Shown here one piece after another: positions 1,765 through 39,111 of a DNA stretch of 39,717 nt. Every line of letters starts with the position of its first letter. Within the stretch, counting starts at the first letter, position 1. The stretch covers positions 1 to 39,717 of the IMG/VR virus record IMGVR_UViG_3300022745_000080, one strand, 5' to 3'. Both the position numbers and the translations under genes were made by a program. The notes under the pieces were generated by a model, which saw only the letters and a list, made by a program, of their open reading frames with translations, was not told where the DNA came from and made no database searches. The DNA is from a virus.

Positions 1765-4500
1765 TTAAATAAATCGGTAAGCTGACCCAGCATCATCGGA
1801 AAAGCCCACAAAATCAATCAAGTGTGAACTTGTCGGGATGAAGCCCAAACTTTTGTCAACCGTCACGGTGTTACCCGCAATGCCTGAGATTTTAACCTCT
1901 GGGCTCACCTGAGTCCAATCCTCAAGCCTAAGCATAAGGGTTGCGCCCACAAAGAGCTTAGCAATGTCACCCGCCCCAACGTCAAACACTGTTTGGCTTG
2001 TGCCCGCCACAACTGAAATTGTGGGGTCAAAAAAGCAATGCTGATTTTTGTAAGCTGCGCCAAGATCAAGGCCCGGATAAATCGGGGGCTCAATGATGTA
2101 GTCCTCAGGCGGTGTAAAGCCCAGGGCCGGGCCCACAATGATCTTATTATTGTCGCTTGGGTCAAAGCCCATGAGTGTTGTTTCAGCATAGACTGACCAA
2201 TCCTCGGACCTCACAGCTATCTTTTCGCCTATGTAACCTTGCCACTTAAGCTTTTCACTGAGTGCTGAGCTTGTGCCATAGGATGCCTTAAGCTTCAGCA
2301 CACTTGTGGTTGATCCCACCCCTGTGTTTGAAGCGGGGCCAAAAACCCCATAGCGCCCTTCATTCAAATAGTGGGTGTCAAGTAAATCCAGGACAACCGC
2401 CCCGGTTTTAATGTCTAAGGATTTATTTACAACCTCAAAAATGCGCTTGTCAAAACCCCTCACCCCTCTTCGAGTGTCAATGAGGTTGAGCTGTTGGTCC
2501 CCATAAACAACGGCGTCCCCCACGTCTATGTAAAAGGCTTCACCATAGAGAAATTTTGCTTTGGTGATTTCAGCCGCGAAACGATACCGCTCAAGCATCC
2601 TGTTTGAGATTTGGCTGATGATTACGTCATTGTCACTCGATGGCCTAAGGCCTCTTGCAAGCACAGTGAGTGACTTGTTGCCAACCTTGATTTGCAACTT
2701 TGAGTCAGCGTCAACGGTGATTTTCCCGCTCAAATATCTTGAATTGTCCAAGACGTTTTGATTGTACTTAAAAACCACGTTATTATAAAAATATCGGTTG
2801 ATTGTCCTGACAATTTTATTGGTCTGTGGTTGCACAGTGTTGTCAGAGTCAAGCACCGGCAAAATTGCAATTGAGAGTGGGGGACTTGTAAAGCCCACAC
2901 TGATTTTACCTTTGCGCGGGATTGAGTAAGCCCCAGTTGGGAAAAGCAAGTCAGTGTCAATGAAGTCCTTTCCCTTTTCAGTTGAGGTCAAATAAAAATC
3001 ATAAGTAAAAATGGCTGAGAAAAATAAATCCCTAAGCCTTTCAAATTCAGGCACGTCAACCTGGTCACCGCCAAGGTTGAGGCCAGCACCCAAGGGTAAA
3101 ACATTATATTTTGATTTGAAGGCAATCACGCCTGATGGGTTTGAGTTTGTAACCAACGGGGCCCCATCAACCACAATGTAAGAACCGCCGTCAACGCTGA
3201 CAACCTCTGTGATTGTCCTCAGCGTGAAATTGTTGGCACTCTCTTGGTCACCTGTGATTGTGCAAAAGTCCCCAGGCACAAGTCCAAAGCGGTCACCCGC
3301 AATGATGCCCTGGAAATAAATTGCATTTGCAATCACCCCGTTGTCAGGGGTGACTTGGATTGACGTAATTTTTTCATCGGTGAGAAAATACTCATCCCCT
3401 GAGAGCATAAGTTTAAGAGCAAGGGAAAAAGCATCACCTTGAAGTCTGTAAAAACTTTTCACCTCTGTGCCCGTTTGGTGTTGGTCCCCTTGTGTCCTCG
3501 GGTCCTCAGCAAACATGGCCTCACGGGTGCAACCTGTAAAGCTTGTGTCAGTGAGGCCAGTATATTCAATGATTTCATCATCAATTCTGACATAAGTTCG
3601 AAGCGTCCCATTATCAGCGGGGGTGAGAAAACTTGCCGTTGACTCAACATCGAGGGTGAGATCACTCTCAAGATTTGTTGAGGCCTGAGCTGTTTGCACA
3701 GTTGAAGCCATGCCAGTCTCAATGCTGACACTGACAAGTGATAAGGCCTCGAGTTTATTTTCAATTGCATTTCTGATCTGTGAAGCGGTTGAGACCCCGC
3801 TTTGCATGAGCACACTGATGGCCGTCCCAACCACGGTGACAACCTCAAGACCCGCAACCCCACCGTTGTTATAAGTGATCGAAACGGTGCCAACCACATC
3901 ACGTCTTGTGGTGTAAGTGAGCCCTTGAATTGTTAAAGATCTAAAGTCAGCCGGGGCGGTGAGCTTAGTTGAGCCCTCTTGAAAAATATCAAACCGCTTG
4001 CCAGCTTCGGGGTGAGCCACGTTGAGGGTGATCATGGCCCCGCCGTCAATGTTGTCAATAATGCCTGAGAAAATGGTGACAAAATCATCGGGGAAAGCGG
4101 TGTCAGAATACCCCAAATAAACCCTTGCTTTTCGCCCAAGCAATTCATTTACCACAACACCGGGGCTAATGAGCCTTGTGATTGCCTCATTGATGTCCAA
4201 CAATGAAATTTGAATTGCTGAAACTGAGGACGCCCCGCCCTTGTCTTGCAAGAGCTGTTGAGTGATTGTGGTTGTCGAGCCATCGAATGAAATCAAGTCA
4301 TCTTGGTCAGCCACTTCATTGAAGCCACCAATTGTCCAAGAGCCATCAATCAAAAGACCCGGGTCACCAATCCTCACAAATTTTTTGATGCGTTCAACGC
4401 CGTATAAAGTTGAAACCCCATCAATTTCAAGGATGAGCTGAGGGTTTTGACTTACACCCTGAGCGGCGGCCTTGGCGAGTTTTGAAAGGTCAAATGCCAT
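1765..4500 (-). CDS. large tail hub / tail-associated protein
   Basis: 911 residues from the ATG at 4500, which has GAGG 6 bases upstream; an in-frame TTG at 4506 is less likely. The N-terminal 170 residues (LEIDGVSTLYGVERIKKF ... KARVYLGYSD ... IFSGIIDNID) have the look of phage tail hub proteins that form the central ring at the tail tip. A middle region carries DNGTLRTYVRIDDEIIEYTG, a short beta module common in tail hubs, and the C-terminal third is repetitive and beta-rich. It overlaps the upstream lipoprotein gene by 11 bases. Hub assignment comes from size, N-terminal pattern and location; the precise family is not certain. Confidence 0.68.
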   Translation of the reverse strand: MAFDLSKLAKAAAQGVSQNPQLILEIDGVSTLYGVERIKKFVRIGDPGLLIDGSWTIGGFNEVADQDDLISFDGSTTTITQQLLQDKGGASSVSAIQISLLDINEAITRLISPGVVVNELLGRKARVYLGYSDTAFPDDFVTIFSGIIDNIDGGAMITLNVAHPEAGKRFDIFQEGSTKLTAPADFRSLTIQGLTYTTRRDVVGTVSITYNNGGVAGLEVVTVVGTAISVLMQSGVSTASQIRNAIENKLEALSLVSVSIETGMASTVQTAQASTNLESDLTLDVESTASFLTPADNGTLRTYVRIDDEIIEYTGLTDTSFTGCTREAMFAEDPRTQGDQHQTGTEVKSFYRLQGDAFSLALKLMLSGDEYFLTDEKITSIQVTPDNGVIANAIYFQGIIAGDRFGLVPGDFCTITGDQESANNFTLRTITEVVSVDGGSYIVVDGAPLVTNSNPSGVIAFKSKYNVLPLGAGLNLGGDQVDVPEFERLRDLFFSAIFTYDFYLTSTEKGKDFIDTDLLFPTGAYSIPRKGKISVGFTSPPLSIAILPVLDSDNTVQPQTNKIVRTINRYFYNNVVFKYNQNVLDNSRYLSGKITVDADSKLQIKVGNKSLTVLARGLRPSSDNDVIISQISNRMLERYRFAAEITKAKFLYGEAFYIDVGDAVVYGDQQLNLIDTRRGVRGFDKRIFEVVNKSLDIKTGAVVLDLLDTHYLNEGRYGVFGPASNTGVGSTTSVLKLKASYGTSSALSEKLKWQGYIGEKIAVRSEDWSVYAETTLMGFDPSDNNKIIVGPALGFTPPEDYIIEPPIYPGLDLGAAYKNQHCFFDPTISVVAGTSQTVFDVGAGDIAKLFVGATLMLRLEDWTQVSPEVKISGIAGNTVTVDKSLGFIPTSSHLIDFVGFSDDAGSAYRFI

Positions 4501-4792
4501 TTGCAACCTCTTGGGTCCAACCGCATTTTTGTTTTAAATCTTTGTACTCTTTTTGAGCGTCCTCGACCCAACGCTTGAAGGGTAAAAACTCATCTTTTGA
4601 AATGAGCACACCGCCGTCACAAGTATCAAGGCTTAGGTCAGCAATGTGCTTAAAGGTGATGGGGTAAGTATCGAGCACTTGCTTTTGAGCACAGACCATG
4701 TGCTTTGTATCGAGCACATAAACAAATTTCAGCTTGTAGTCACCACAAGATGAGAGTGCAAGGACGCTAAGAGTTAAGAAAATCATCCTCAC
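4490..4792 (-). CDS. small phage lipoprotein (possible outer-membrane spanin)
   Basis: Residues 3-16 are a hydrophobic signal sequence ending in LALSSC, a good lipobox, so the mature protein should be lipid-anchored at Cys. The rest (about 85 residues) has four more cysteines and a helical, charged C-terminus. I chose GTG at 4792 because AAAGG lies 7 bases upstream; ATG codons at 4807, 4864 and 4786 are in frame but have poorer sites. The gene starts inside the preceding 71-codon gene (26-base overlap), as outer spanins often do, and sits in a group of four tiny genes between fibre and hub genes. An exclusion or spanin role is inference. Confidence 0.72.
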   Translation of the reverse strand: MRMIFLTLSVLALSSCGDYKLKFVYVLDTKHMVCAQKQVLDTYPITFKHIADLSLDTCDGGVLISKDEFLPFKRWVEDAQKEYKDLKQKCGWTQEVANGI

Positions 4793-4982
4793 TTTTTTGC
4801 CTTTCATCGCGGGTTTGATCTTTTTTGACCTCAGCTTCAAACTTGTTGGTTGAAGCGTGATCATGAAACTTTTGAGTCAAATGTAAAATCCAATCTTGGA
4901 TAAGTTTTTCAACCTTTGGCAAAGCCCATTGGACTAATTTACCAGCAACAAAAGCCAAAACTTTTTCCAAGATTGGACTCAT
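4767..4982 (-). CDS. small amphipathic protein of the lysis-like cassette
   Basis: 71 residues. Residues 4-38 form a mostly hydrophobic, Leu/Val/Ala-rich helix with interspersed Lys and Trp, followed by a strongly charged tail rich in Lys, Glu and Asp. No clear uncharged membrane span is visible, so it could be a membrane-associated helix or a coiled-coil partner. GAGG lies 8 bases before the ATG. The 3' end hosts the start of the lipoprotein gene in another frame. If the lipoprotein is an outer spanin this could be its partner, but it lacks a typical N-terminal membrane anchor. Confidence 0.55.
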   Translation of the reverse strand: MSPILEKVLAFVAGKLVQWALPKVEKLIQDWILHLTQKFHDHASTNKFEAEVKKDQTRDERQKSEDDFLNS

Positions 4983-5216
4983 TTATTTTACCTCAGGTAA
5001 ATGCAACTTATCAATCAACTCATCAATCTTGCTGTCAGCCATGGCAAGGATTGTGTCATCAATTGGGGTTGCTGTTTTTGCTGCCTCAGCCTTAAGCACC
5101 GCCACAACTGAGTGAGCAAAGCTTTTAAGAAAAGGCTTCATGACAGGTTTAAGAGCCTCGAGTATTGATGCTTTAAGTTGCAACTTTAAATTTTCAACAA
5201 CCGGTTTTAAGTCCAT
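4983..5216 (-). CDS. small helical protein of the lysis-like cassette
   Basis: 77 residues from ATG 5216, which has AAAGGA 7 bases upstream; TTG at 5222 is an alternative. The sequence is helical and Lys/Leu/Ala-rich throughout, with a moderately hydrophobic stretch (FAHSVVAVLKAEAAK) too short and polar for a sure membrane span. It overlaps the upstream gene by 23 bases and abuts the next. I do not recognise the family; holin-accessory or coiled-coil functions are open. Confidence 0.55.
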   Translation of the reverse strand: MDLKPVVENLKLQLKASILEALKPVMKPFLKSFAHSVVAVLKAEAAKTATPIDDTILAMADSKIDELIDKLHLPEVK

Positions 5217-5418
5217 TTTCAAATCCTTTCAGTTTTTCATTTATGACTGCAATCTCAATTCTGTTTTCAACAACCTTTTCATTTGTGGCATTTACTTTTG
5301 TGCCAATCCCATTGACCTGTTTTTTGAGCTCAGCCAAGTCCCGTTTCATCACCACAATTGTGGCGGCAAACCCGCTGACCGCTGTGATGATGTGACCGAG
5401 GTCAAAGTCTAAGCTCAT
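5194..5418 (-). CDS. small membrane protein with coiled coil (holin/XhlA-like accessory)
   Basis: 74 residues from ATG 5418, which overlaps the preceding stop as ATGA and has GGGG 5 bases upstream. An N-terminal hydrophobic segment (HIITAVSGFAATIVVM) is followed by a long heptad-like helix (LAELKKQVNGIGTKV onward) and a short polar tail. This layout resembles small phage membrane proteins near lysis genes, although classical XhlA has its membrane segment at the C-terminus. It is the first of four tiny genes between the signal-peptide fibre and the tail hub. Confidence 0.6.
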   Translation of the reverse strand: MSLDFDLGHIITAVSGFAATIVVMKRDLAELKKQVNGIGTKVNATNEKVVENRIEIAVINEKLKGFENGLKTGC

Positions 5419-7448
5419 CTTGGCCCCATGCAAATCACGTCAAAATCAATATCAGCCGAGGCCCCCGAGCTTGGAACCCGGATATCAGTGGTTATTGACG
5501 TTGCTGTTATAGAGACAACACTACAAATTCTTTGCCCCGATTCGGGGTTACAAGTACACGTTGGCGCTTGTGAAAAGCGGCCTGAAGGGATTGTCAAAAC
5601 TACCGCACCCACTCCCGTACGGTTTATTGTCCACCCCCCATCAGATTGTGAAACAATCGAAGCCGTGCCGTTGTTTAAAACTCTTATGCGCTCAATCCTT
5701 TCAGCCCCATTTGAATTTGAACTTACTGAGCCCACAAGGATTGGAGTGTTGGCCGCACCGTAAAACTCTTCAATAATGATGACACCCGATCCCCCGGCAC
5801 CCGCCACTTGAGTTGAAGCCGCCGCTGTGCCACCCGCACCAATTGAATAATTGTAAGAGCTTGCAATCTGTCCAACAGGGATGATGATTTCAAGATACCC
5901 ACCGGCCCCACCGCCTGAGCCTGTAAAAGCGCCGCCCGTACCCGAGCCACCGCCCCCTGAGCCTGAATTTGCGGCACCCGATCCCGAAGCTGCGTTATTT
6001 GATCCCCCATCACCGCCCCCGGCACCGCCAAATGGTGATGATCCCCCATCACCGCCTTTGCCATTGGCGTTTGATGATGGGCCATTGGTTGTTGCACCCC
6101 TGACCAAAGTTGCAACCAATCCTGTTGTATTTGTGCAAACAGCACCGTTTGTTGACGGCGCATCATCCCCATTGACGGTCCCCCCAGGCCCCCCAGCACA
6201 TGAAAGCTGTGATCCAAAAGTTGTGGTCCCACCGGCCCCACCATTTTGCCCGGCGGCACTCCCACCGCCACCGCCGCCACCGCCAATCATTCTGATCTTT
6301 AAGTATTTCACACCGGTTGGTGGGAAATAAACCCCTGTGCCCGATGTGAGTCTTGTTGTGGTTGGTGAAGAGGGCGCGTTGATGTTTACAATTGTGCCAT
6401 TCCCAGCAAATCCAACGCAAGGCACTCGAAAATTTAAACTAAATGTGAGGGATGTTGCCGAAAATTGGTCAACATTTAATAAAGAAATATTATAACCCGT
6501 GGTGTTTGCTTGATTATAGTTGTAATCCTTAAATGCAATTTGTGAACTTGAATACACTGATGGGGTGATTGTACCAATCAAAGAGCCTTGATAAGTTTCC
6601 CTCATGATGCCAATGCCACCCGAGTCAGTTTGACCAATTGATGCTGTTGTATTGGCCTTGGCTCTCACGGTATCAATCACACAAATTGAACTTGGGATAT
6701 TGAAGAGCATGAGCCCTGTGCCGTTCGTGCCCGCCGCTGTTTGCCTGTAGTCCCATCTTACCAACAAGTCAGGCCCTTCTCTTCGATATTGAGCAACATT
6801 TGTGGCCACAGTCCCATAAACCGGATTTGTTGTTGACCCTGTGATTAGTGCGCCAGCGGCAACACTTGGGAAGTCTTGCCAGTCAGTTGAAATTGCGCCA
6901 AGACCGAGATTTGTGGCTTTCCCCGCATAAACCTTTGCCACGTTGACCGTGTTTGAGCCGGTACCAGTTGATGCCAAGCAAACGGTTGCTTGTGAACTTA
7001 GGTTACCACAAGGAAAATTCATTGAGACTGGTTGCGAATATGACGGGTTGATCAGTTGCAAGTCAGTTGTGACTTGCACGGTGCCAAGGGTCACATAAGT
7101 TTTGAAGTTGGCCGCATTGCCTTTATAAACAAATTTTGCTTCACAGTTTTGCCCTTTGAGGTCCTCGCCAAAGAAATTGGCGGTCCAGCAAAAGGTCTGT
7201 GCTGAAGTTGAAGCGGTGACCGCGCATTGAGTATTGGTGTCAGCGTTGAGCGGTGTTGTGGCGTTTTGTGCAACAGTCCCGCCACTCACTGTGATGAAGC
7301 TTGTATTTTTCCAACAATCGGGATTTTTGATGTAGTTTTTTTCAGCACTGAGTCCCGGCAAATATGTGCCGGGTGAAACCAAGCTTGAGTTTTGCGCTTG
7401 AGCAAAACATCCTGCGAAAAATAATACTAAGAAAATAAATGCTTTCAT
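5415..7448 (-). CDS. secreted, cysteine-rich fibre-like protein with polyglycine domain
   Basis: 677 residues. Residues 1-19 are a signal peptide (Lys, hydrophobic core, cleavage near AQA/Q); a weaker lipobox reading at FAGC is possible. Residues 30-190 resemble the carbohydrate-binding-like 'NYIKNP ... KNT' modules seen in environmental phage adhesins and contain many cysteines. Residues 190-380 are beta-rich. Residues 385-560 are a glycine-rich sandwich starting KIRMIGGGGGGGG, as in fibre-tip adhesins, and the end is another small beta domain with a CTC/C pair. A virion fibre normally needs no export signal, so this protein may be displayed on the host or assembled in an unusual way. AAGGG precedes the ATG; the gene follows a tail fibre gene. 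Confidence 0.75.
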   Translation of the reverse strand: MKAFIFLVLFFAGCFAQAQNSSLVSPGTYLPGLSAEKNYIKNPDCWKNTSFITVSGGTVAQNATTPLNADTNTQCAVTASTSAQTFCWTANFFGEDLKGQNCEAKFVYKGNAANFKTYVTLGTVQVTTDLQLINPSYSQPVSMNFPCGNLSSQATVCLASTGTGSNTVNVAKVYAGKATNLGLGAISTDWQDFPSVAAGALITGSTTNPVYGTVATNVAQYRREGPDLLVRWDYRQTAAGTNGTGLMLFNIPSSICVIDTVRAKANTTASIGQTDSGGIGIMRETYQGSLIGTITPSVYSSSQIAFKDYNYNQANTTGYNISLLNVDQFSATSLTFSLNFRVPCVGFAGNGTIVNINAPSSPTTTRLTSGTGVYFPPTGVKYLKIRMIGGGGGGGGSAAGQNGGAGGTTTFGSQLSCAGGPGGTVNGDDAPSTNGAVCTNTTGLVATLVRGATTNGPSSNANGKGGDGGSSPFGGAGGGDGGSNNAASGSGAANSGSGGGGSGTGGAFTGSGGGAGGYLEIIIPVGQIASSYNYSIGAGGTAAASTQVAGAGGSGVIIIEEFYGAANTPILVGSVSSNSNGAERIERIRVLNNGTASIVSQSDGGWTINRTGVGAVVLTIPSGRFSQAPTCTCNPESGQRICSVVSITATSITTDIRVPSSGASADIDFDVICMGPR

Positions 7449-7449
7449 T

Positions 7450-9162
7450 TTAGACCCTTCCCGTTTCAGCCCATGCGGTGCCGTTCCAAACCAATTTTAA
7501 AATTGAATTTGAATATGAGTACCAATCACCCTTTAAATAAGGGTTATTTAATTGCATCAAAATAATGTAGTCAGTGTTATGGGTGCCATAGATCCAAAGT
7601 TCACGGCCAACAGTCAGCGCCGGGGCAATCATTGGATTTGCAATCACATTGACCTCACCGCCGTTTGATTTCACAAACCAAACTTGTCTTGCATCAGTGC
7701 CCTCAACATAAGCAATGCCGGTGCCTGCCACAATTGATTGTGGGGATGCAATCGAGCCCGTGACAACAAGGGCCCCGCCGCCCGCGCCTGAGCCCGAGCC
7801 GCCCACGACTTGCCACAAACTTGCCGCCGCATCATAAATGAAAGTAAGGGCTGAGCCGTCAGTCACCGTGAGATTTGCACCCGTGCCGGTAAGAATACGA
7901 TTTGCAGCGGTCCCGCCTGTATTGTTTTTGATAACAACAGAACCCCCGGTTGCAAACTTAACAATCAAAAAAGACCCGTTTTGTGGGGCCGCAATATTGT
8001 TGATTGAAGCAAGTGAGGCATTGGTGACTTTTAAAAATGACCTTGTTGGTGCAAGACTTTGATCAGCCCCGGTTGTGGTTGAGTCAACTTGTTGGACAAG
8101 CCTAATCATGGCTTGAAAAAGTTGATCAGCCATCCAAGTTTTCACCCCAGCAAATGCCTGAGCTGCAATTGAAATGAGCCCGGGATGAGTGTCATCAGCC
8201 GGTTGAAGGGTTATCACCTGGCCTGAAATGGTTGCACCCTTAGCATCAGGTGTCGAACCGAAAGCGCCTAGACTTGCGTCACCTGTATTGGTGCCTGACA
8301 AATTGCTTGCGCCGATTGTGCCGGTGAAAGTCTTATTGCCCGCAAAGGACTGAGTGCCGGTATTTACAACCCCTCTATGGGCTGTTGAGGCATCAATGAC
8401 ATCGGCTGTGACATCAAGGGTGCCCACTTCCATGGGGTTGCTCGGGAAGGTTGGTTTTGTCGAGACGTTGAAAACTTCCCAGAAAATAAATTTGATGTTT
8501 GTTGAACTGAGGTTGTAAGCCGTTTCAGTGCCAGCAATATTGGTGAAAAAAGATAAAGTCCAAACACCGGTCGCATAAGTCATGCGACCATAAACCCTTT
8601 GACCTGTGGTTGCATCCTCAATATAAGTCAGAGTTGAAGCATCAACCACAAAGACTCTATTTTCAGGCGGTGCGGTGACAACACCCACGTTGGTTGTTGT
8701 ACCCCCTGAAACCTTGCCAACCATTTGTGCTGACACGTCAACGCTTGTGCCACTTGCGCCGGTTTTTGTGGCCCCTTGATAAACCGCTTCAAATACATTG
8801 AAGTTTGAAAGTGCGAGGGCTGAAATCTGTTTGCCAGCACCCGCCGCACCCGAGTGATCATGACCCGAGGTCACGTTGAATTTTGCATCTAGTTTGCCAA
8901 GAGCAACTTTTTTACTGTCACCGTTGGCAATGACTTCATTTGATGAGTAAGTTTTTCTTGTGGTGTCACCAGTGCCGGTCATACCCTCGGCATCAAATAT
9001 TTCATTGATTGCTTGCTGTGAATTTGCAACAGCGGCCCCGCTGTTTGGGTCACTTACGTTGTTAAGACCAACCACACCCACCGTTGTGGTGTTGGCCGTC
9101 CTTGACATAAAGGCATTGTTGAAAGTCGTTTGATTTGCAATTTGTCCATTTGTGACGCTCAT
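7450..9162 (-). CDS. tail fibre protein
   Basis: 570 residues. Motifs common in phage fibres are present: GHDHSGAAGAGKQI near residue 100, NLSGTNTGD near 300, and GLISIAAQAFAGVKTW shortly after. The N-terminus is short and helical (likely attachment), the middle repetitive and beta-rich, and the C-terminus is an aromatic-rich receptor-binding-like domain (about residues 460-570). It lies between the distal tail gene and the signal-peptide fibre in the same unit, overlapping the former by 4 bases. Binding target unknown. Confidence 0.8.
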   Translation of the reverse strand: MSVTNGQIANQTTFNNAFMSRTANTTTVGVVGLNNVSDPNSGAAVANSQQAINEIFDAEGMTGTGDTTRKTYSSNEVIANGDSKKVALGKLDAKFNVTSGHDHSGAAGAGKQISALALSNFNVFEAVYQGATKTGASGTSVDVSAQMVGKVSGGTTTNVGVVTAPPENRVFVVDASTLTYIEDATTGQRVYGRMTYATGVWTLSFFTNIAGTETAYNLSSTNIKFIFWEVFNVSTKPTFPSNPMEVGTLDVTADVIDASTAHRGVVNTGTQSFAGNKTFTGTIGASNLSGTNTGDASLGAFGSTPDAKGATISGQVITLQPADDTHPGLISIAAQAFAGVKTWMADQLFQAMIRLVQQVDSTTTGADQSLAPTRSFLKVTNASLASINNIAAPQNGSFLIVKFATGGSVVIKNNTGGTAANRILTGTGANLTVTDGSALTFIYDAAASLWQVVGGSGSGAGGGALVVTGSIASPQSIVAGTGIAYVEGTDARQVWFVKSNGGEVNVIANPMIAPALTVGRELWIYGTHNTDYIILMQLNNPYLKGDWYSYSNSILKLVWNGTAWAETGRV

Positions 9163-30070: not shown

Positions 30071-32326
30071 CTAATTTTTGCCAATTTTTGCCCAAAATCT
30101 CACCCTTTCGCCCTCATTTCTTGACCTCACGTTGGCATAGCCCAAAAATCTCAGGCATTTTGCGATCCTCATTTGGTCCCCGCGAGAAAACCCACCGGCA
30201 CTCGTGTCACCCTCAAGACCCCTGATAAAGTTGAAAACGTCCAATGCTTTAAAGTTTTGAGGCCTCTTGGCCACAAATTCTCGGACTTCATCGAGCCATT
30301 CGTCGGCTTGATACCGCTCACGCTGTTGCTCAATTGCCATCATTTCAACGTCTTTTTCTTCAAGGTAAAGATCCTCACCGCCTAAATAATAGGCAAATGC
30401 TTCGGCCCACAATTGGTCCTTATCAGCCTTGAGTTTTTCCCGGTCCAAGGCACCCACCACAACAGGCCAAAAACGGCGGTTGCCAGTTTCATCCTGTAAA
30501 TACTCACTTTGATTTGTGGTACCAATAAAAATGCACTGACGTGGGAAGGTCTCAGCCTTTCGCTCATAAGCAAGCCGGGCTCGGTCCTCAGTCTTACTCA
30601 AGAAAGCTTTCAAGCTCTCCGCATCAGCCCTGTGGGCTGGGGTCATTTCAGGTAACTCAATGATCCAACAATTTTGAATATTGTTGATTGTGTCCTTATT
30701 ATTGGGGTCAATGTGAGTGGCTGAAGTCCATGGGTCACTCAATATTGAAATGGCTGAGGACTTCCCCACCCCTTGGCCACCCTCAAGCACAAGCACACAG
30801 TCAAATTTGCACCCAGGTTTTACCACACGCGCAACCGCCGCCACAAGAGTCTTGCGCCCAACAGCTTCAACATATTTGTCAGGCCCAACAGCGTCCAAGT
30901 AGTCGAAGAGCCAACGTGAAAGCCTGGGTTTACCGTCCCAAGTGAGGCTCATCAAATAATCTTTAACCGGGTGATAAGCGTTTTTATGTGCAAGAAAAGT
31001 GACGGTCTTGATGATCTCATCCTCAGAGGGATCAATCTTGAAATGAGTCTGAAGCCAAATCTTTGCACGGGTGAGGTCCACGTTTGAAATCTCTTTACCT
31101 GTGGCGGTTTGCCCAGGCAAAACCCACGGTGGCTCAGCCCCATAAAACACCCCACCAAAAAATTCATTAAACAAAAAGGTTTTTGGCTTCAGTGCATTTT
31201 CCAAAATCAGAGCTCTGTTTTTTGATGAGTTTTTATTGACCCCTTGTTGGGTCTTATCCAAGCGGTCACGCCAAGTGATAAGCCCCTCAACCTGGGCTTG
31301 TGCCTCGGCTTCACTGAGCTCAGGCTCATCAATCATTTCATCATCACCAAATTCATTTGCAGCACTAAACTCAACCTTCACTTTTTGTACTTGGTTGATA
31401 AGCCACTGGGCGGCCCGCTCTCTGTTGCCGCCCCACTTTTCAAGAGCCTTTTCACTGATCGCGTTTTCACTGTCAGTAAGGATTGAAACAATTTGGTCAA
31501 CACTAAGATCAGCCCCCACAAGGGCGTTGATTGCAGCAAATAAAGCTGATGAGCGGTCCCCGCCGTATTCGTCAAGCCCGTCACCAATTGTGATGAGCCC
31601 GATCATCTTAGGGCTAAGTCCCGCATCAGTGAGAGTCATCAAATCCCACTCGACAAACTTAAAAGCCAAGTTTGTGGTAGCTTGACTCACCTTTTTGAAT
31701 TTTCTTGGGCTGTATTCGATCAAATCATCAACGCTTTCAAGTCTATTTTTCCAAGTGTATTCACGCCCTGAGTCCGGGTGAATTGAGGGCGGCATGACCG
31801 CTTGTGAACCGCTGCCAAGAAAAGTGATTTCCCATGCCCGTGCTAAGCGCCAACCGGCCTCAAGTTCACTTGGTAAAAATTCAGCCCGGTCTTGGATTGA
31901 TGGGGCCCGTGAGGGCATCAAAGTCCTTACCCGGTGGGCACTCTCAGCAATCTGAAAGCGGTTTAAGGGTTCATGCACCTTTGCATAAATATGCAAAGAG
32001 TATTCATTGCGCCCTGAGATCACGGTTGGTGAAAACTCCCAATCAGGAAAGGCCACGCTCAGGGCTTTTTCCATTTCAATCTTGTGGGCGTCCTCGGTTG
32101 ACTTCATGTCACAGTCAATGACACATAAATAAAAGCCATCTTTTAATTTTGACGGCTTCCCCGGTCTCACCCCACAATTAAACCCAGGTTTGTATTGGTC
32201 CCGAAGCTCGGGCCAAGTCTTTGTTTTTAAATTGGTCCAACGCTTTTCAATTGGCACCTTGCTATTCTCTTTCAGCCAGATCACTGAAAGGCCCATGTTG
32301 ACAAATGGCTTGAGGCTCTCAAGCAT
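30071..32326 (-). CDS. prim-pol / VapE-type primase-helicase
   Basis: 751 residues from ATG 32326, which has GAGGGGG 5-6 bases upstream; a GTG at 32341 is less likely. The N-terminal 200 residues look like a bifunctional primase-polymerase domain (NCGVRPGKP, VIDCDMK with the metal-binding Asp pair, then SGRNEYSLHIYAK). The C-terminal half is a virulence-associated E (VapE) helicase: WDGKPRLSRWL, Walker A GGQGVGKSS near residues 514-522, Walker B WIIELPEM near 555, then TTNQSEYLQDETGNRRFWPV. It probably opens and primes the origin. The C-terminal iteron lies 3 bases behind its stop. Confidence 0.88.
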   Translation of the reverse strand: MLESLKPFVNMGLSVIWLKENSKVPIEKRWTNLKTKTWPELRDQYKPGFNCGVRPGKPSKLKDGFYLCVIDCDMKSTEDAHKIEMEKALSVAFPDWEFSPTVISGRNEYSLHIYAKVHEPLNRFQIAESAHRVRTLMPSRAPSIQDRAEFLPSELEAGWRLARAWEITFLGSGSQAVMPPSIHPDSGREYTWKNRLESVDDLIEYSPRKFKKVSQATTNLAFKFVEWDLMTLTDAGLSPKMIGLITIGDGLDEYGGDRSSALFAAINALVGADLSVDQIVSILTDSENAISEKALEKWGGNRERAAQWLINQVQKVKVEFSAANEFGDDEMIDEPELSEAEAQAQVEGLITWRDRLDKTQQGVNKNSSKNRALILENALKPKTFLFNEFFGGVFYGAEPPWVLPGQTATGKEISNVDLTRAKIWLQTHFKIDPSEDEIIKTVTFLAHKNAYHPVKDYLMSLTWDGKPRLSRWLFDYLDAVGPDKYVEAVGRKTLVAAVARVVKPGCKFDCVLVLEGGQGVGKSSAISILSDPWTSATHIDPNNKDTINNIQNCWIIELPEMTPAHRADAESLKAFLSKTEDRARLAYERKAETFPRQCIFIGTTNQSEYLQDETGNRRFWPVVVGALDREKLKADKDQLWAEAFAYYLGGEDLYLEEKDVEMMAIEQQRERYQADEWLDEVREFVAKRPQNFKALDVFNFIRGLEGDTSAGGFSRGDQMRIAKCLRFLGYANVRSRNEGERVRFWAKIGKN

Positions 32327-32358
32327 AAAAATCCCCCTCACAAAAATTTGAGTTTAAT

Positions 32359-32745: not shown

Positions 32746-34362
32746 ATGGGGCTTTTGATATTTGAAAAAGACCTAAACACGTTTGTGTTTAGATGCACTT
32801 TCAGCGAAAAGGACATCCCCAAGCGAGCCGGTTTTAAGTGGGACAATGACAACAAAGTTTGGCATGAGCCTGACCATGCAAGAGCTTTTAAATTGATTGA
32901 ATTTGCAACCGACTCAGCAAAGAATGAAATCAATAAAAGAACAGGTATAAGTTTTAAGATCCCACCCATCATTGCAAAGAGTGGGGTAAAACTGATGAAG
33001 CATCAACATGAAGCGGTTGACTTCATCTTGGCAAGAAAAAACGCTTACTATGCCGGTGACCCTGGGGTGGGAAAAACGGCGGTTGCCATCACTGTGGCCT
33101 CAACTCTTTGTTACACCACAGAGCACACCCCGCAAGTGTTGGTGATCTGCCCACCATTTTTGGCGCTCAACTGGGTTGAAGAGATCAAAAAGTTTGCACG
33201 TTTTCAACCCGCAAGCGTTGAAATAGTTGGGTCCATGAGACACAAGCTCTCAGGTCGTGCCGCTTGGGTGATCTTACCAGACTCACTTTTACAGAGTGAG
33301 CTTGTGCGAGAGAATATCATTGAGCATGGCAACTTTGACATCCTCATTGCTGATGAGGCCCACAGGTTTAAGAATGAAAAAGCGGTAAGGACCAAAGCCC
33401 TTTATGGCCACAATGCCAAGCGAAAAGGCATCACGGGGCTCATCACTGTGGCAAGACGTGTGCTTTTGCTTAGTGGGACGCCGATGCCAAACAGACCCAT
33501 TGAGCTCTTTCCTTGTATCAATGCCCTTGCACCCCATCTTATTTATGGCATGACGATTTTTGAGTATGGGCTCAGGTATTGCCAAGGTCAAAGGACTGAG
33601 TGGGGATGGGATTTCTCAGGGGCAAGCAATGTGCAAGAGCTCCACGAGAGGGTCATCGGTACTCTGATGCTAAGACACAGCAAAGAGGATTGCCTCGACT
33701 TACCGGCAAAAATGATAAGAACTAAAAAGCTTCAAAGTGACATCACTAAGAAAACTGAAAAGCTTTTGAAAAATGTCAGCGGTGAGGACATTGACAACAT
33801 ATTAGACAACCCCATGAGTGAGCTTGGTGAAATGGCCACACTGAGATCAGAGCTCTCACTTATCAAAGCTGATGCCGCGATTGATTTCATTGAGGGCGCT
33901 GTTGAAGAGTCAGGCAAGGTGCTTGTCTTTGCTTGGCACAAAAAGGCCATTGCTCACCTTGAGGTTAAGCTCACAAATATCTTCGGCCCCGACTCTGTGG
34001 TTGTCAATGATGGCTCTGTCAGCATGAAAGCTCGCCACACCAACGTGAGAGAATTTCAGGAAAATAAAAAGGTGAAAGTCATGATTGGCCAGATTGAAAC
34101 CATGGTTGGCATCACCCTCACCTCAGCTTATCGGGGTATATTTGTTGAGATGAGTTGGCAACCTGGACAAAATGAGCAAGCCATGGACCGTTTGCACAGG
34201 ATTGGCCAAACGGAAAAGGTCATCATTGATATTTTATCAATTGAGCATGACCTTGATGAGCGCGTTTTCAAGTCCTTAAAATACAAGGAAAAAACGATCA
34301 GTGAATTTTTAACCGGCGAAACCGCCAAAAAGAAAAGGGTGACCAATGACTTTGAACATTGA
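32746..34362 (+). CDS. SNF2-family (SMARCAL1-like) DNA helicase/translocase
   Basis: 538 residues. A short N-terminal module (FSEKDIPKRAGFKWDNDNKV) precedes the two RecA-like lobes: Walker A GDPGVGKT (residues 104-111), DEAH (203-206), LLSGTPMPNRP (motif III, near 243), and in lobe 2 VLVFAWHK, then QAMDRLHRIGQTEKV (motif VI, near 483). This resembles compact phage SNF2 proteins and the annealing helicase SMARCAL1, which rewinds or remodels DNA forks. First gene of the plus unit, with GAGGGG before the ATG. Confidence 0.92.
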   Translation: MGLLIFEKDLNTFVFRCTFSEKDIPKRAGFKWDNDNKVWHEPDHARAFKLIEFATDSAKNEINKRTGISFKIPPIIAKSGVKLMKHQHEAVDFILARKNAYYAGDPGVGKTAVAITVASTLCYTTEHTPQVLVICPPFLALNWVEEIKKFARFQPASVEIVGSMRHKLSGRAAWVILPDSLLQSELVRENIIEHGNFDILIADEAHRFKNEKAVRTKALYGHNAKRKGITGLITVARRVLLLSGTPMPNRPIELFPCINALAPHLIYGMTIFEYGLRYCQGQRTEWGWDFSGASNVQELHERVIGTLMLRHSKEDCLDLPAKMIRTKKLQSDITKKTEKLLKNVSGEDIDNILDNPMSELGEMATLRSELSLIKADAAIDFIEGAVEESGKVLVFAWHKKAIAHLEVKLTNIFGPDSVVVNDGSVSMKARHTNVREFQENKKVKVMIGQIETMVGITLTSAYRGIFVEMSWQPGQNEQAMDRLHRIGQTEKVIIDILSIEHDLDERVFKSLKYKEKTISEFLTGETAKKKRVTNDFEH

Positions 34363-34861
34363 AAGCATGAACCGACAAACCAAGGTAAAAATTTTGACCG
34401 CTGAGCTGATGAAAGCTCAAGCAATCGCTGAGCATTTTGAATTTCAACTTGCCGCTCTTGATAAGCCCGAAGCCGAAACCAAGGGACAAGATGTAAAAAC
34501 CCCTGACACTGAGGCACCAAAAGTCGAGACGAAAAAGAGCGGCAAGCCTTCACCCACCACAAAGAAAACGGCCAAGTCTGTGGCTGTTGTTGAGCCTGAA
34601 AATGAGGTTGATGATGTCATTGAAGCAAGTGAAGAGGAAATCCATGAGGTTGAAGCTGTTGAGTCCGATGACACCGAGTCAGAGGAAAGCTCTGAAATCT
34701 CTGATGATGAAATCAGAAAACTCCTCATTGAATATGCAAAGCGAAAAAATGACCCAACAGCCGCCGCCAAAACTGTGGCCAAGTACAAGGTGCAAAAATC
34801 AAAACAGTTGAACCAACGTCAACGCGCTGAAATCAAGCACATGGTTGAGGGCTTTCAATAA
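34346..34861 (+). CDS. acidic low-complexity protein
   Basis: 171 residues. Residues 10-40 are helical, 40-80 are Pro/Lys/Thr-rich and disordered, 80-120 are a run of Glu/Asp/Ser, and 120-171 form a basic helix pair (RKLLIEYAKRKNDPTAAAKT). It overlaps the helicase stop by 17 bases, with AAGGG upstream of the ATG, and its stop shares a base with the next start. Placed with replication genes, it could be a DNA mimic or a partner of the nuclease, but the family is not recognised. Confidence 0.6.
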   Translation: MTLNIESMNRQTKVKILTAELMKAQAIAEHFEFQLAALDKPEAETKGQDVKTPDTEAPKVETKKSGKPSPTTKKTAKSVAVVEPENEVDDVIEASEEEIHEVEAVESDDTESEESSEISDDEIRKLLIEYAKRKNDPTAAAKTVAKYKVQKSKQLNQRQRAEIKHMVEGFQ

Positions 34862-35988
34862 TGTCAACAGCACCCCACAAAGAGCGCAAGCACTCAAGGA
34901 TTAGCCCCTCAAAGTCTGAGCGTTGGCTGAATTGTCCCGCGAGTGTTTGCCTTGAAGAGAAATACCCCGAGCAACCCGAGAGCCCCTGGGCTCTTGAGGG
35001 CACCAAAGCGCATGAAGCACTTGAGAAATTTTTGCGCCGCTTTTTGAAAAATGGGCGGCGGCATGGACTGTTTGAAGGGGATGACCTCTTTGACTCTGTG
35101 GGGGTAGCATTTGATTTCATCCTTGAAGAGCGGGCCAAGCTTTCAGGCTGTGAGCTTTTAATCGAAGAAAAAGTTGATTGCTCTTTTATTGACCCCGAGC
35201 TTACAGGCTCACTTGACGTGGCCTTGGTGCAACCGTTTGGGCTCTTGCACGTCATGGACTACAAGCACGGCGCTGGCATTTCAGTTGACCCAGTTAAAAA
35301 CACACAGCTTTTAATTTATGCCATTGGTATTGCTGAAAAGTACGGGTGGGATTTTGAGGACGTGCGGCTCACAATCATCCAACCCCGTGCAAGAGATTGT
35401 GGCGGGATCAAGCATTGGGACCTAAGCATTGATGAGCTCAAGGCTTGGGTGCCGATATTTGATAAAGGCATCAAGAGGACCAAGGCTTTAAACGCTAAGC
35501 CATTTGCTGGGGATTGGTGTAAGTATTGCCGGGCCTCGGTTGATTGCCCAGCCCTTGGCAAAAAGTCTTTGGCTGAAGCTAAGATTGAGTTCACTGACAT
35601 TGATAAACCGGCAAAGCTTCCAGATATTTCAAAGATGACACCCGAGCAACTCGGTAAGGTCCTTGATGTTTCAAAGGTCATTGAAATTTGGCTCAGTGAT
35701 GTCAGGGCTTTTGCTGAGGACAAACTTAAAAACGGCGGGGAAGTTAAGGGCTGGGGGCTTGTGCCAAAGAGATCATACAGAGTTTGGAAAGATCCGAAAA
35801 AAGCCGCTTCAGTTTTTGGCCTAATTGTGAAGGATGCTTTTGTCACAGACTTAAAATCACCGGCACAGATGGAAAAAGAAAAAGACGTGCATGGCAAAAA
35901 GGATATCAAAAAGCTTGTTGCTGAGCACACCACAACAGTCTCAAACGGGGTCACCCTTGGTAAGACTGAGAAAATTTTGGAGTTTTAA
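34861..35988 (+). CDS. DUF2800 RecB/Cas4-like nuclease
   Basis: 375 residues. RecB-type core: Asp119 in GSLDVAL, Asp133 and Lys135 in VMDYKHG, and Gln149 in QLLIYA, the PD-(D/E)XK order. Four cysteines, Cys25 in LNCPAS and Cys220/Cys223/Cys229 in WCKYCRASVDC, match an iron-sulfur cluster site as in Cas4/AddB. DUF2800 proteins occur in a conserved phage set with DUF2815 and family A polymerase. Likely a DNA-end processing nuclease for replication-linked recombination (family knowledge). Confidence 0.85.
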   Translation: MSTAPHKERKHSRISPSKSERWLNCPASVCLEEKYPEQPESPWALEGTKAHEALEKFLRRFLKNGRRHGLFEGDDLFDSVGVAFDFILEERAKLSGCELLIEEKVDCSFIDPELTGSLDVALVQPFGLLHVMDYKHGAGISVDPVKNTQLLIYAIGIAEKYGWDFEDVRLTIIQPRARDCGGIKHWDLSIDELKAWVPIFDKGIKRTKALNAKPFAGDWCKYCRASVDCPALGKKSLAEAKIEFTDIDKPAKLPDISKMTPEQLGKVLDVSKVIEIWLSDVRAFAEDKLKNGGEVKGWGLVPKRSYRVWKDPKKAASVFGLIVKDAFVTDLKSPAQMEKEKDVHGKKDIKKLVAEHTTTVSNGVTLGKTEKILEF

Positions 35989-36388: not shown

Positions 36389-36537
36389 GGTTCTTACTCT
36401 GTCAACTGGGCTTTCACAAATGGATTTCGCCCATCTATTTGCCGCACCTGAGGCGCTGTGTTTATTGTGGCACTGATAAATTTGTAAAACCAAAACAACC
36501 CAAAATGGGAAAGGAAAAAGACAATGCAAAATTTTAA
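36385..36537 (+). CDS. small zinc-knuckle protein (DUF1660-like)
   Basis: 50 residues beginning MRFLLCQLGFHKWISPIYLP. Cys6, the LGFHKW motif and CVYCG (Cys25/Cys28) match the pattern of small prophage proteins in DUF1660, with a Cys/His/Cys/Cys metal site. The C-terminal 18 residues are basic. ATGA coupling on the 5' side; the next gene starts inside its 3' end. Function is unknown in the family. Confidence 0.65.
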   Translation: MRFLLCQLGFHKWISPIYLPHLRRCVYCGTDKFVKPKQPKMGKEKDNAKF

Positions 36538-37126
36538 ACCTGAGGTCAAAATTGATAAGGACAAAAAGAAAATTTTTATCAAGACCTCGATGTTTCGCGT
36601 GAGTTATCCAAATGTATTTGAAGCAAAAGCTATCCAAGAGGGTCAAGCCCCCAAGTATTCAATGGTGATGCTATTCCCAAAAAAGCACGACCTTAAGTGG
36701 CTGAAGGATGCCGTTGAACTTGCTCGAAAATTTCAGTTTGGTGACAAGGTGCCGAAGGGTTTTAAAAACCCACTCAAGGACGGGGACTCTGAGGACTATG
36801 CTGACCAACCCGGTTACAAGGGCATGATGGTTGTAAGTTGCTCAACCAATGCCAAGCGCAAGCCACAAATCATCAACAATAAAAAAGAACTGATCACCGA
36901 TGAGTCAGAGTTTTACCCAGGTTGCTGGGCCCGTGCCACTCTTACTTGTGCCGGGTATGATGCGGGCGGCGGCAAGGGCGTCACCTTTTATTTATCAAAC
37001 GTGCAAAAGATAAAAGATGATGAGTCATTTTCAACACGCCGAAACGCTGAGGATGATTTTGAAGAGTTTGAGTCAGAGGATGAAGGCTCAGAGGACTCAT
37101 CAAACTATGAGGACATGGACGTTTGA
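36524..37126 (+). CDS. DUF2815-type ssDNA-binding protein
   Basis: 200 residues. The pattern MFRVSYPNVFEAKAIQEGQA, KYSMVMLFPKK and GVTFYLSNVQKI, followed by a strongly acidic tail (EDDFEEFESEDEG), is that of DUF2815 proteins, regarded as OB-fold single-strand DNA-binding proteins of phages. An acidic C-terminus is used by SSBs to hold partners such as polymerase. It sits directly before the family A polymerase, sharing 4 bases. AAGGA lies 8 bases before the ATG. Confidence 0.82.
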   Translation: MQNFKPEVKIDKDKKKIFIKTSMFRVSYPNVFEAKAIQEGQAPKYSMVMLFPKKHDLKWLKDAVELARKFQFGDKVPKGFKNPLKDGDSEDYADQPGYKGMMVVSCSTNAKRKPQIINNKKELITDESEFYPGCWARATLTCAGYDAGGGKGVTFYLSNVQKIKDDESFSTRRNAEDDFEEFESEDEGSEDSSNYEDMDV

Positions 37127-39111
37127 GAGTCATCCTTGATTTCGAAACCTTCAGTGAAATTGATTTAAAAGTTGCGGGGGCATGGGCTTACTCTATGCAC
37201 CCCTCAACCGAGGTCCTTTGCGTTGGTTACAAGATTGATGACCAAGAGCCCAAGCTGTGGCGTCCTGATCTTGCACCCGAGCAACCCTATGACCTTTACA
37301 TGGCCTTACTTGATCAAAGGACAATTGTGGTTGCCCACAATGCCTTTTTTGAATTTTGCATTTGGCAAAATTGCTTGCGAGAAAAATATCCTCAGCACTT
37401 CAACCCGCTCACAATTATTGAGCACAAGAGGATGAGTTGCACCGCCGCCCGAGCAAGACACTTGGCTTTACCTGGGCACCTTGATGGGCTTTGCAAAGCC
37501 TTAAACCTTGATCACCAAAAAGATATGACGGGCCATAAGCTCATGCTCAAGATGTGCAAGCCTAAGCGCCCCTCAAAATTAAACCCAAGCATTCGCCACA
37601 ATACCCCTGAGCAAATGCAAAGGCTTGGTGAGTATTGCCTTCATGACATCAAGGCCGAGTATGAGCTTGATAAAATCTTGCCCCCGCTTCCAAAGAGTGA
37701 GCGTGAGCTTTGGCTCTTTGACCAAATGCTCAATGCCCGTGGCATCACCGCTGATGTTGAAGCGTGTAAACTTATAAAATCTCAGATCAAAACCTTCACC
37801 GAAAAGCTCACCGAAGAGTTGCAAGACGTGAGCGGCGGGGCCCTTCAAACCGCTGGGCAAAATGAAGCCATAAGGGTTTTCTGTGAAGCCCAGGGCTTTG
37901 ACCTTGAAAATGCCCAAAAGAAAACTGTGGCAACAGCTCTCAAAAATAAAGGCCTCACGCCACAAGTGCGGCGAGTGCTTGAAATTAGGCAATCACTTTC
38001 AAAGTCCTCAACAAAAAAATATGATGCTTTCATTGCCATGGCTGACACCAAAGGGAAAATCAGAGATCTTTGGCGGTATCACTCAGCTTCAACGGGGCGC
38101 TGGGGCGGTGCCGGTATTCAACCGCAAAATTTCCCACGGGGCACAGTCAGTGACCTTGAGAGTGCTCTTGAAGCGGTAAGGCTTAACAACGCCGAGCTTT
38201 TCTCTGTGCTTTATGATGAACCCATGGAAGTCTTTTCGTCCTTGCTTCGGTCAATGATCACAGTTGAAAAAGGTAAAGAGCTTTTTTGCGCTGACTTTGC
38301 CGGGATTGAGCTGAGGGTCCTCATGTGGCTTGTGGGCCAAGAAAATGCGCTCAAGATGATCAGAGCCGGTGGGGACCTTTATTGCTATCAGGCAAGCGAT
38401 ATTTTCAAGAGGACAATCACCAAAGAGGATAAGGCTGAGCGTTTCATCGGGAAAGAGGCCGTGCTCGGCATGGGCTTTGGCATGGGGGGTGCAAAGTTTT
38501 TTAAAACAGTGATTGAAAAGGGTGGCAACATCAGCCCCGAGCTTGCCAAAAAAGCGGTGCAATCTTACCGCTCAAAGTTTGACCGAGTGCCAAAGTTTTG
38601 GGACCGGGTTGAGCGGGCGGCAATTCAATGTGTGAATACCAAAAAGCCTGTTGACCTCGGGCGCGTGAAATTTGAAATGAGGCAACTCAAACGGGGTCAA
38701 AGGACCTGGGATTTTCTGGTTTGCATTTTACCCTCAGGGCGTCCTTTGTGGTATTCAAGCCCTTCAGTCAAAAACAAGCTCACCCATTGGGGTCAGGTAA
38801 AGCCACAACTTCACTATTGGGAAGTGGACCCCAAGACCAAGCAATGGGCTGAGTCCCACATTTACGGCGGCAAATGGACTGAAAACATTGTCCAAGCCAT
38901 TGCTCGGGACCTTATGGCGCATGGGGCCTTGAATTGTGAGCGCCAAGGCTTTGAAATTTTACTTATGGTGCATGATGAGCTGTTGGCTTCCAAACCCCTT
39001 GGGGTTGGCTCTGTTGAAGAGTTTGAAAAGCTCATGTGTGACATCCCCCTTTGGGCCCGAGGTTGTCCTGTGACCTCTGAGGGTTGGAAGGGATTGCACT
39101 ATAAAAAATGA
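37123..39111 (+). CDS. family A DNA polymerase with 3'-5' exonuclease
   Basis: 662 residues from TTG 37123, which overlaps the SSB stop (TTGA). Exonuclease: Asp6/Glu8 in LDFETF, VAHNAFFE (a Glu where the usual motif ends in Asp), and YCLHD with Asp175. Polymerase: TGRWGGAGIQPQNFPRG, motif A FCADFAGIELR with Asp near 391, motif B KEAVLGMGFGMGG, and motif C MVHDELL with Asp near 617. This is the usual phage replicative enzyme. Size matches phage polA-like proteins without a 5' nuclease domain. Confidence 0.95.
   Translation: MRVILDFETFSEIDLKVAGAWAYSMHPSTEVLCVGYKIDDQEPKLWRPDLAPEQPYDLYMALLDQRTIVVAHNAFFEFCIWQNCLREKYPQHFNPLTIIEHKRMSCTAARARHLALPGHLDGLCKALNLDHQKDMTGHKLMLKMCKPKRPSKLNPSIRHNTPEQMQRLGEYCLHDIKAEYELDKILPPLPKSERELWLFDQMLNARGITADVEACKLIKSQIKTFTEKLTEELQDVSGGALQTAGQNEAIRVFCEAQGFDLENAQKKTVATALKNKGLTPQVRRVLEIRQSLSKSSTKKYDAFIAMADTKGKIRDLWRYHSASTGRWGGAGIQPQNFPRGTVSDLESALEAVRLNNAELFSVLYDEPMEVFSSLLRSMITVEKGKELFCADFAGIELRVLMWLVGQENALKMIRAGGDLYCYQASDIFKRTITKEDKAERFIGKEAVLGMGFGMGGAKFFKTVIEKGGNISPELAKKAVQSYRSKFDRVPKFWDRVERAAIQCVNTKKPVDLGRVKFEMRQLKRGQRTWDFLVCILPSGRPLWYSSPSVKNKLTHWGQVKPQLHYWEVDPKTKQWAESHIYGGKWTENIVQAIARDLMAHGALNCERQGFEILLMVHDELLASKPLGVGSVEEFEKLMCDIPLWARGCPVTSEGWKGLHYKK

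Follow-up and report, generated by a model that had tools for sequence, protein, structure and literature searches.

A Sec-type signal peptide on the distal half of a two-gene phage tail fibre, and a possible two-compartment route to the assembled fibre

It is assumed that a tailed virion has all its parts, fibres among them, before the host is lysed. In multi-gene tail fibres of the T4 type, the proximal and distal subunits are made as separate gene products, and the fibre subunits known to us fold in the cytoplasm. Superinfection-exclusion lipoproteins of the T5 Llp type are short, carry a lipobox and block the receptor. Fibres with signal peptides have been described in a bacterium, Bdellovibrio bacteriovorus: its mosaic adhesive trimer (MAT) fibres are secreted mosaics with phage-like tips, some of them TNF-like, in which a signal peptide precedes a conserved beta-rich domain of ~130 aa (PMC10769870). 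That phages use the Sec system is documented by secreted endolysins with signal peptides, such as Lys44 of fOg44 and the SAR endolysins (PMC6116005). A survey of DGR targets describes those of phages as having no signal peptide (PMC6199706). A literature search over the titles and abstract starts of open-licence PMC articles returned no tailed phage with signal-peptide-bearing tail fibres or periplasmic fibre maturation, and within the same scope nothing on Bdellovibrio phage fibres that describes export of a fibre half.

Here we describe P0001, a protein of 677 aa encoded on the minus strand (5415–7448) of a virus record of 39,717 bases; this whole stretch of DNA, which we call the window, contains large terminase, head, tail and replication genes. 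As in T4-type fibres, there are two tail-operon products, a proximal one that is anchored to the tail and a distal one with binding tips, and the domains of P0001 are common to the single-chain fibres of relatives; unlike in T4-type fibres, the distal subunit has a predicted Sec signal peptide and cysteines in paired number. Compared with the T5 Llp type, P0001 is long and has only a weak FFAGC box, which most relatives lack. Like the MAT fibres, it is a putatively exported mosaic fibre protein with a signal peptide followed by a beta domain, of ~150 aa in P0001, which may or may not be related to that of the MATs. MATs are bacterial genes on a predator chromosome, whereas P0001 stands in a virus record among phage genes, and the S74 domain is absent from it. 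Like the secreted endolysins, P0001 would be a late phage protein that uses host Sec and waits in the envelope until lysis, but the exported endolysins are lysis enzymes and not parts of a tail fibre. The surface-displayed DGR target proteins in the DGR survey are, like P0001, binding proteins with signal peptides (PMC6199706). Against the usual expectation, P0001 is tagged, which sets it apart from the phage DGR targets treated there.

P0001 lies directly behind fibre-1 (P0002; 7450–9162, minus strand), a protein of 570 aa without cysteines or a signal peptide, whose N-terminus is homologous to the fused fibres of relatives from their residue 1 onward and which we read as the tail-anchored proximal fibre. 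The stop codon of fibre-1 falls 1 nt before the start of P0001, and the gene order is the same in relatives. On the other side, again on the minus strand, the ATG of a small holin/XhlA-like gene (5194–5418; weak XhlA match, E 0.05) overlaps the P0001 stop (ATGA). It is followed by a lipoprotein with an LSSC box, o-spanin-like by position (4490–4864, minus strand), and by P0004 (1765–4506, minus strand), a large conserved tail protein that is hub-like by position. The first-pass annotation had placed P0001 between a tail fibre and lysis-like genes, and this placement holds. The replication block of the window (30071–32341, 32746–34362, 34861–35988, 36524–37126 and 37123–39111) encodes Prim-Pol/VapE, an SNF2-type helicase, a DUF2800 exonuclease, an Enc34-like ssDNA-binding protein and PolA. 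Searches with the terminase and the polymerase matched distant phages of many hosts and nothing closer, and P0001 and P0004 had no match among named phages.

The start of P0001 is an ATG with AAGG 7 nt upstream. Past the signal peptide, the only other in-frame starts within the 59 codons scanned are TTG, TTG and GTG, both TTGs without an SD match and the GTG, at codon 54, preceded by a 3-nt match only. Residues 1–18 (7395–7448, minus strand), MKAFIFLVLFFAGCFAQA/Q, show the n-, h- and c-regions of a Sec signal peptide, with K2, a hydrophobic stretch at 4–13 and predicted cleavage AQA/Q at 18/19; FFAGC14 offers an alternative reading as a weak lipobox. Signal peptides were called by rules of our own among the ORFs of 200 aa or more on 28 contigs, 146 in all, a count that spans the genes upstream of the hub, hub included. 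Under the stricter rule 10 of the 146 are positive, nine of them second-fibre genes at the P0001 slot and the other lipoprotein-like. This amounts to 9 of 18 fibre-2 genes against 1 of 128 others (Fisher p 7e-9; this and the other p values given here are rough, because related sequences are not independent). Two further signal peptides, in L021 of the family survey and L174 of the cap2 set described below, were recognized by eye and missed by the rules. Export of P0001 by Sec is a prediction that the sequence supports well. The first-pass annotation had found it unexpected that a fibre-like protein should carry an export signal, and we agree: by its predicted tag, P0001 breaks the expectation that a distal tail-fibre subunit is cytoplasmic and carries no export signal, and this is the new point here.

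The same annotation had proposed a survey of relatives for signal peptides at this locus. Relatives were gathered through P0004, which yielded 27 further contigs; with the window included, 27 of 28 cover the slot. Left out of the counts were duplicate loci (L014, L017, L018, L022, L026, L029, L038, L040 and L041), loci with short hub matches only (L008–L010 and L039) and L011, whose contig leaves the slot uncovered and which stands in the tree's "single" group. A signal peptide is present on the second fibre in 10 of 27 contigs (the window, L006, L012, L021, L027, L032, L033, L034, L036 and L037) and absent from it in 8 (L002, L005, L007, L013, L015, L016, L023 and L035); in the remaining 9 a separate second fibre is missing (L003, L004, L019, L020, L024, L025, L028, L030 and L031).

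What these genes encode is indicated by the domains of P0001, which consists of five pieces: the signal peptide, an N-domain, an M domain, a poly-glycine domain and a C-terminal tip. The M domain (residues about 186–350; 6399–6893, minus strand) is common to virion fibres of relatives. Its profile finds P0001 at E 2.3e-6, the next non-fibre match standing at E 3 (hmmsearch), and is matched by 9 of the 10 tagged fibres, all except L033, by 5 of the 8 untagged second fibres and by five single-chain fibres, which share with fibre-1 a tail-anchor module at their start. By blastp, residues 158–253 of P0001 align with 453–543 of the fused fibre L025 (39% over 97 aa, E 9e-7). The poly-glycine tip domain (residues 363–564; 5757–6362, minus strand) matches the C-terminal part of the single-chain fibre L031 with an alignment score of 407, against 198 for the best of 300 shuffles, and it has 2 cysteines where the matching part of L031 has none; a PHROGs scan of P0001 placed one tail family, phrog_863, in this glycine-rich part. 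The polyglycine fibre-tip element of the first-pass annotation is thereby borne out. Moreover, the tagged fibre of L006 is collinear with the untagged one of L013 along almost all of its mature sequence (blastp E 1e-43), and it aligns with residues 586–1086 of the fused L031 (blastp E 2e-14) and also with the distal part of the single-chain L019. The M domain, the collinearity of L006 and the poly-glycine match together argue that the tagged gene encodes a tail fibre's distal half. By its homology to tail-anchored fibres, and by its position in the tail operon adjoining the proximal fibre, P0001 is thus assigned to the distal half of a two-gene fibre and not to a one-off adhesin.

The N-domain (residues about 25–182, profile A7; 6903–7376, minus strand) contains cysteines. 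In the AF2 model, residues 40–180 have pLDDT values mostly of 55–85 per block, and a fold search with residues 24–182 returned CBM4/16/22/61 chains and CBA120 TSP4 at Z 12–14. The model thus agrees with the carbohydrate-binding-like region of the first-pass annotation and predicts a CBM-type beta-sandwich, a fold match that does not point to a ligand. The structure prediction that the annotation had also suggested was usable for this domain; at full length the mean pLDDT is 43, and the model was used for residues about 24–182 only. The C-terminal tip domain (residues 572–677; 5418–5735, minus strand) has 4 cysteines, and its profile, A6/Ctip, is found in 7 tagged fibres of the family and in L094/L095, L066 and L097. 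Its AF2 model (pLDDT 70) had no PDB match at E<=1e-3, and Pfam and NCBIfam scans of P0001 gave no match, although a missing match in these searches does not exclude a family. We also considered a single N-domain family for all tagged fibres. It was rejected, as comparisons of A7 with L002, L006, L007, L032 and L033 were not significant (hhalign), and the tagged fibres are linked only by the M domain and collinear blastp matches.

P0001 has 15 cysteines, 14 of them after the signal peptide. The first-pass annotation had pointed to the many cysteines and to their fit with oxidative folding, and the wider counts are in keeping with this. In the 28-contig set, cysteines per 100 aa number 1.56 in tagged fibres, 0.62 in untagged second fibres and 0.22 in single-chain fibres (Mann-Whitney p 4e-4), and the number after the signal peptide is even in 10 of 10 tagged fibres. 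In the cap2 set it is even in 33 of 35 complete tagged next genes versus 80 of 122 controls, these being proteins with at least 2 cysteines (p 3e-4). Odd counts occur in L042 (5 after the signal peptide), L141 and L150, and three tagged fibres have only 4 cysteines. Cysteines do not, however, require export, because untagged relatives can be rich in them as well (14 in L094/L095, 10 in L066), which weakens them as proof of export. In L066, the untagged, cysteine-rich relative of P0001 is directly followed by a gene for thioredoxin (L066:9319–9783, plus strand; PF00085 at 29.9 bits, above the cut-off). A thioredoxin made by the phage may assist a fibre that remains cytoplasmic.

The signal peptides sit exactly before sequences that, in relatives without the tag, start at Met. 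From residue 21 onward the tagged L006 aligns to the end with the untagged L129 from residue 2 onward (33% identity), and in a second subunit residue 17 onward of L137 aligns with residue 2 onward of the untagged L138 (56% identity). The distance to the NYIKNP/NFIKNP motif is equal within one residue between mature P0001 and the untagged L094 and L066 counted from Met1. On the hub-protein tree the tagged state is scattered, with the tagged L021 pairing with the single-chain L024, and the well supported branches force at least 6 changes. Thus, untagged fibres and tagged ones replace each other. Small genes with signal peptides lie behind the tagged fibres of L036 (7606–8157, plus strand) and L006 (9389–9943, plus strand). 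That of L036 resembles genes without signal peptides behind the untagged fibres of L002, L013, L016, L007 and L035 (hhalign E 3e-5, probability 73), and because its L006 counterpart shows no such likeness, a co-exported chaperone is not claimed.

Fibre-1 of the window ends in a C-terminal cap domain, cap1 (7456–7731, minus strand). An HMM finds it in 11 split-fibre contigs, six tagged and five untagged, whereas the nine contigs that lack a separate second fibre do not have it. In seven further fibre-1 proteins the C-terminal domain is a different one, cap2. Searching IMG/VR with cap2 returned 49 loci, of which five or more are on contigs already in the set, and the match lies at or near the ORF end, with 0–25 residues after it. 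The next gene was available in 47 loci, representing 43 distinct sequences (L171 and L176 are cut before it), and 39 of the 43 are tagged by rule, L174 additionally by eye. The exceptions are L129 and L134, which have no signal peptide, and L132, where something other than a fibre half follows. Among the upstream genes of at least 150 aa, 5 of 98 are tagged, three of these being fibre-chain subunits (Fisher p 1e-24). The N-termini of fibre-1 before cap2 differ between phage types, which suggests that the cap and the tagged fibre travel together. Some fibre-1s are little more than adaptors, 163 aa in L036 and 153 aa in L072, with no obvious binding domain of their own. The pairing also occurs in a complete circular podovirus record, MW202898.1, where a cap1 fibre-1 is overlapped by a tagged fibre of 917 aa (L042; 35733–38486) that carries the annotation "caprin-2 domain protein". 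Fibre-1 is itself tagged in 6 of 44 distinct cap2 cases (L130, L132, L133, L135, L137 and L139), and a tagged fibre-1 could mean a wholly exported fibre. L130 and L132 lie about 14 kb apart on one contig, IMGVR_UViG_3300033067_001518. In L137 four fibre-type subunits with signal peptides stand in a row behind one untagged gene of 466 aa (2017–5572, plus strand), and by its predicted tags this is a fibre chain exported from the second member onward.

We propose that P0001 is a distal, receptor-binding half-fibre that is exported by Sec, pairs its cysteines in the periplasm and docks on the fibre-1 cap at lysis, and we give this route about an even chance. A Sec signal peptide would have been added to the N-terminus of a distal half-fibre. 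Fibre-1 would remain in the cytoplasm and attach to the tail, exposing its cap, while P0001 would pass into the periplasm of the infected cell, where the signal peptide would be cut off and the 14 cysteines could pair. When holin, endolysin and spanin opened the envelope, the half-fibres would meet the released virions, and the freed N-terminus of P0001 would dock on the cap. Docking is favored because the tagged gene replaces a part of the virion, because some fibre-1s consist of anchor and cap only and because tagged and untagged fibres interchange. Against it, the tagged fibre-1s of some phages shift the joint between cytoplasm and periplasm further in. By extension, two-compartment fibres, with a cytoplasmic tail-anchored part and a Sec-exported, disulfide-locked distal part joined to a cap at lysis, and with cap and tagged gene moving together between phage types, may occur across a widespread group of tailed phages, a generalization that falls just short of an even chance. 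What is exported would on this view be either a distal part or, as in L137, as many as four subunits in a chain.

The first-pass annotation had left the choice between display on the infected cell, for exclusion, aggregation or host manipulation, and an unusual assembly route. Its observation is confirmed and its interpretation partly supported: the distal-fibre homology, the recurrence of the tag behind a cap and the interchange of tagged and untagged genes favor assembly over exclusion or aggregation. Nevertheless, a signal peptide normally denotes life outside the cytoplasm, and P0001, with its CBM-fold domain and fibre tips, adjoins the lysis genes. An exported half-fibre that never joins a virion might mask the receptor, giving superinfection exclusion, or coat the receptors on debris and so spare the progeny. 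The tagged fibre-1s fit such display at least as well as docking, since in these phages the whole assembly may be exported. We consider it the main rival but less likely than docking, because P0001 follows fibre-1 directly in the tail operon and replaces a virion fibre half in relatives, so that repeated switching would strip virions of their distal fibre each time; fibre-1s reduced to anchor and cap speak against it too, as do the absence of a lipid anchor common to all and of a known route across the outer membrane before lysis.

The hydrophobic N-terminus might instead be a membrane anchor or stay uncut, with assembly at the inner membrane or with the segment buried in the joint between fibre-1 and fibre-2. 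Hydrophobic N-termini alone cannot prove cleavage, and the cleavage/lipobox stretch of P0001 is ambiguous, but most of the 39 tagged genes next to cap2 have clear cleavage-type sites, mostly AxA. Moreover, relatives without the tag begin exactly at the mature end. An unprocessed segment would have no counterpart in them, and we regard this reading as improbable. Still less probable, and to our minds very doubtful, is that P0001 is a host-like adhesin carried as cargo that alters the surface of an infected or lysogenic host. Bdellovibrio MATs do combine a place on the cell surface with signal peptides and tips like those of phages (PMC10769870). However, P0001 lies inside the tail operon, coupled to fibre-1, there is no integrase among the scanned ORFs of the window, and searches of the phage, plasmid and genome-contig collections gave no match to it. 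With two genome-contig scans empty and no MAT entry in the PDB sequence searches, that with the N-domain included, the idea that P0001 belongs to the MATs was given up, and the kinship is at most one of working alike, as putatively exported fibres both.

Whichever of docking and display applies, annotation is affected, as tagged fibre genes can pass for bacterial secreted proteins. If the protein is displayed, tagged fibres would represent an overlooked family of proteins that derive from fibres and act in exclusion or as decoys. If, as we favor, half of the fibre matures in the periplasm and docks later, fibre biogenesis would depend on the Sec and disulfide machinery of the host. Disulfide-stabilized fibres would then be an evolutionary option for these phages, and host range could be altered by half-fibres that other phages release into a shared lysate.
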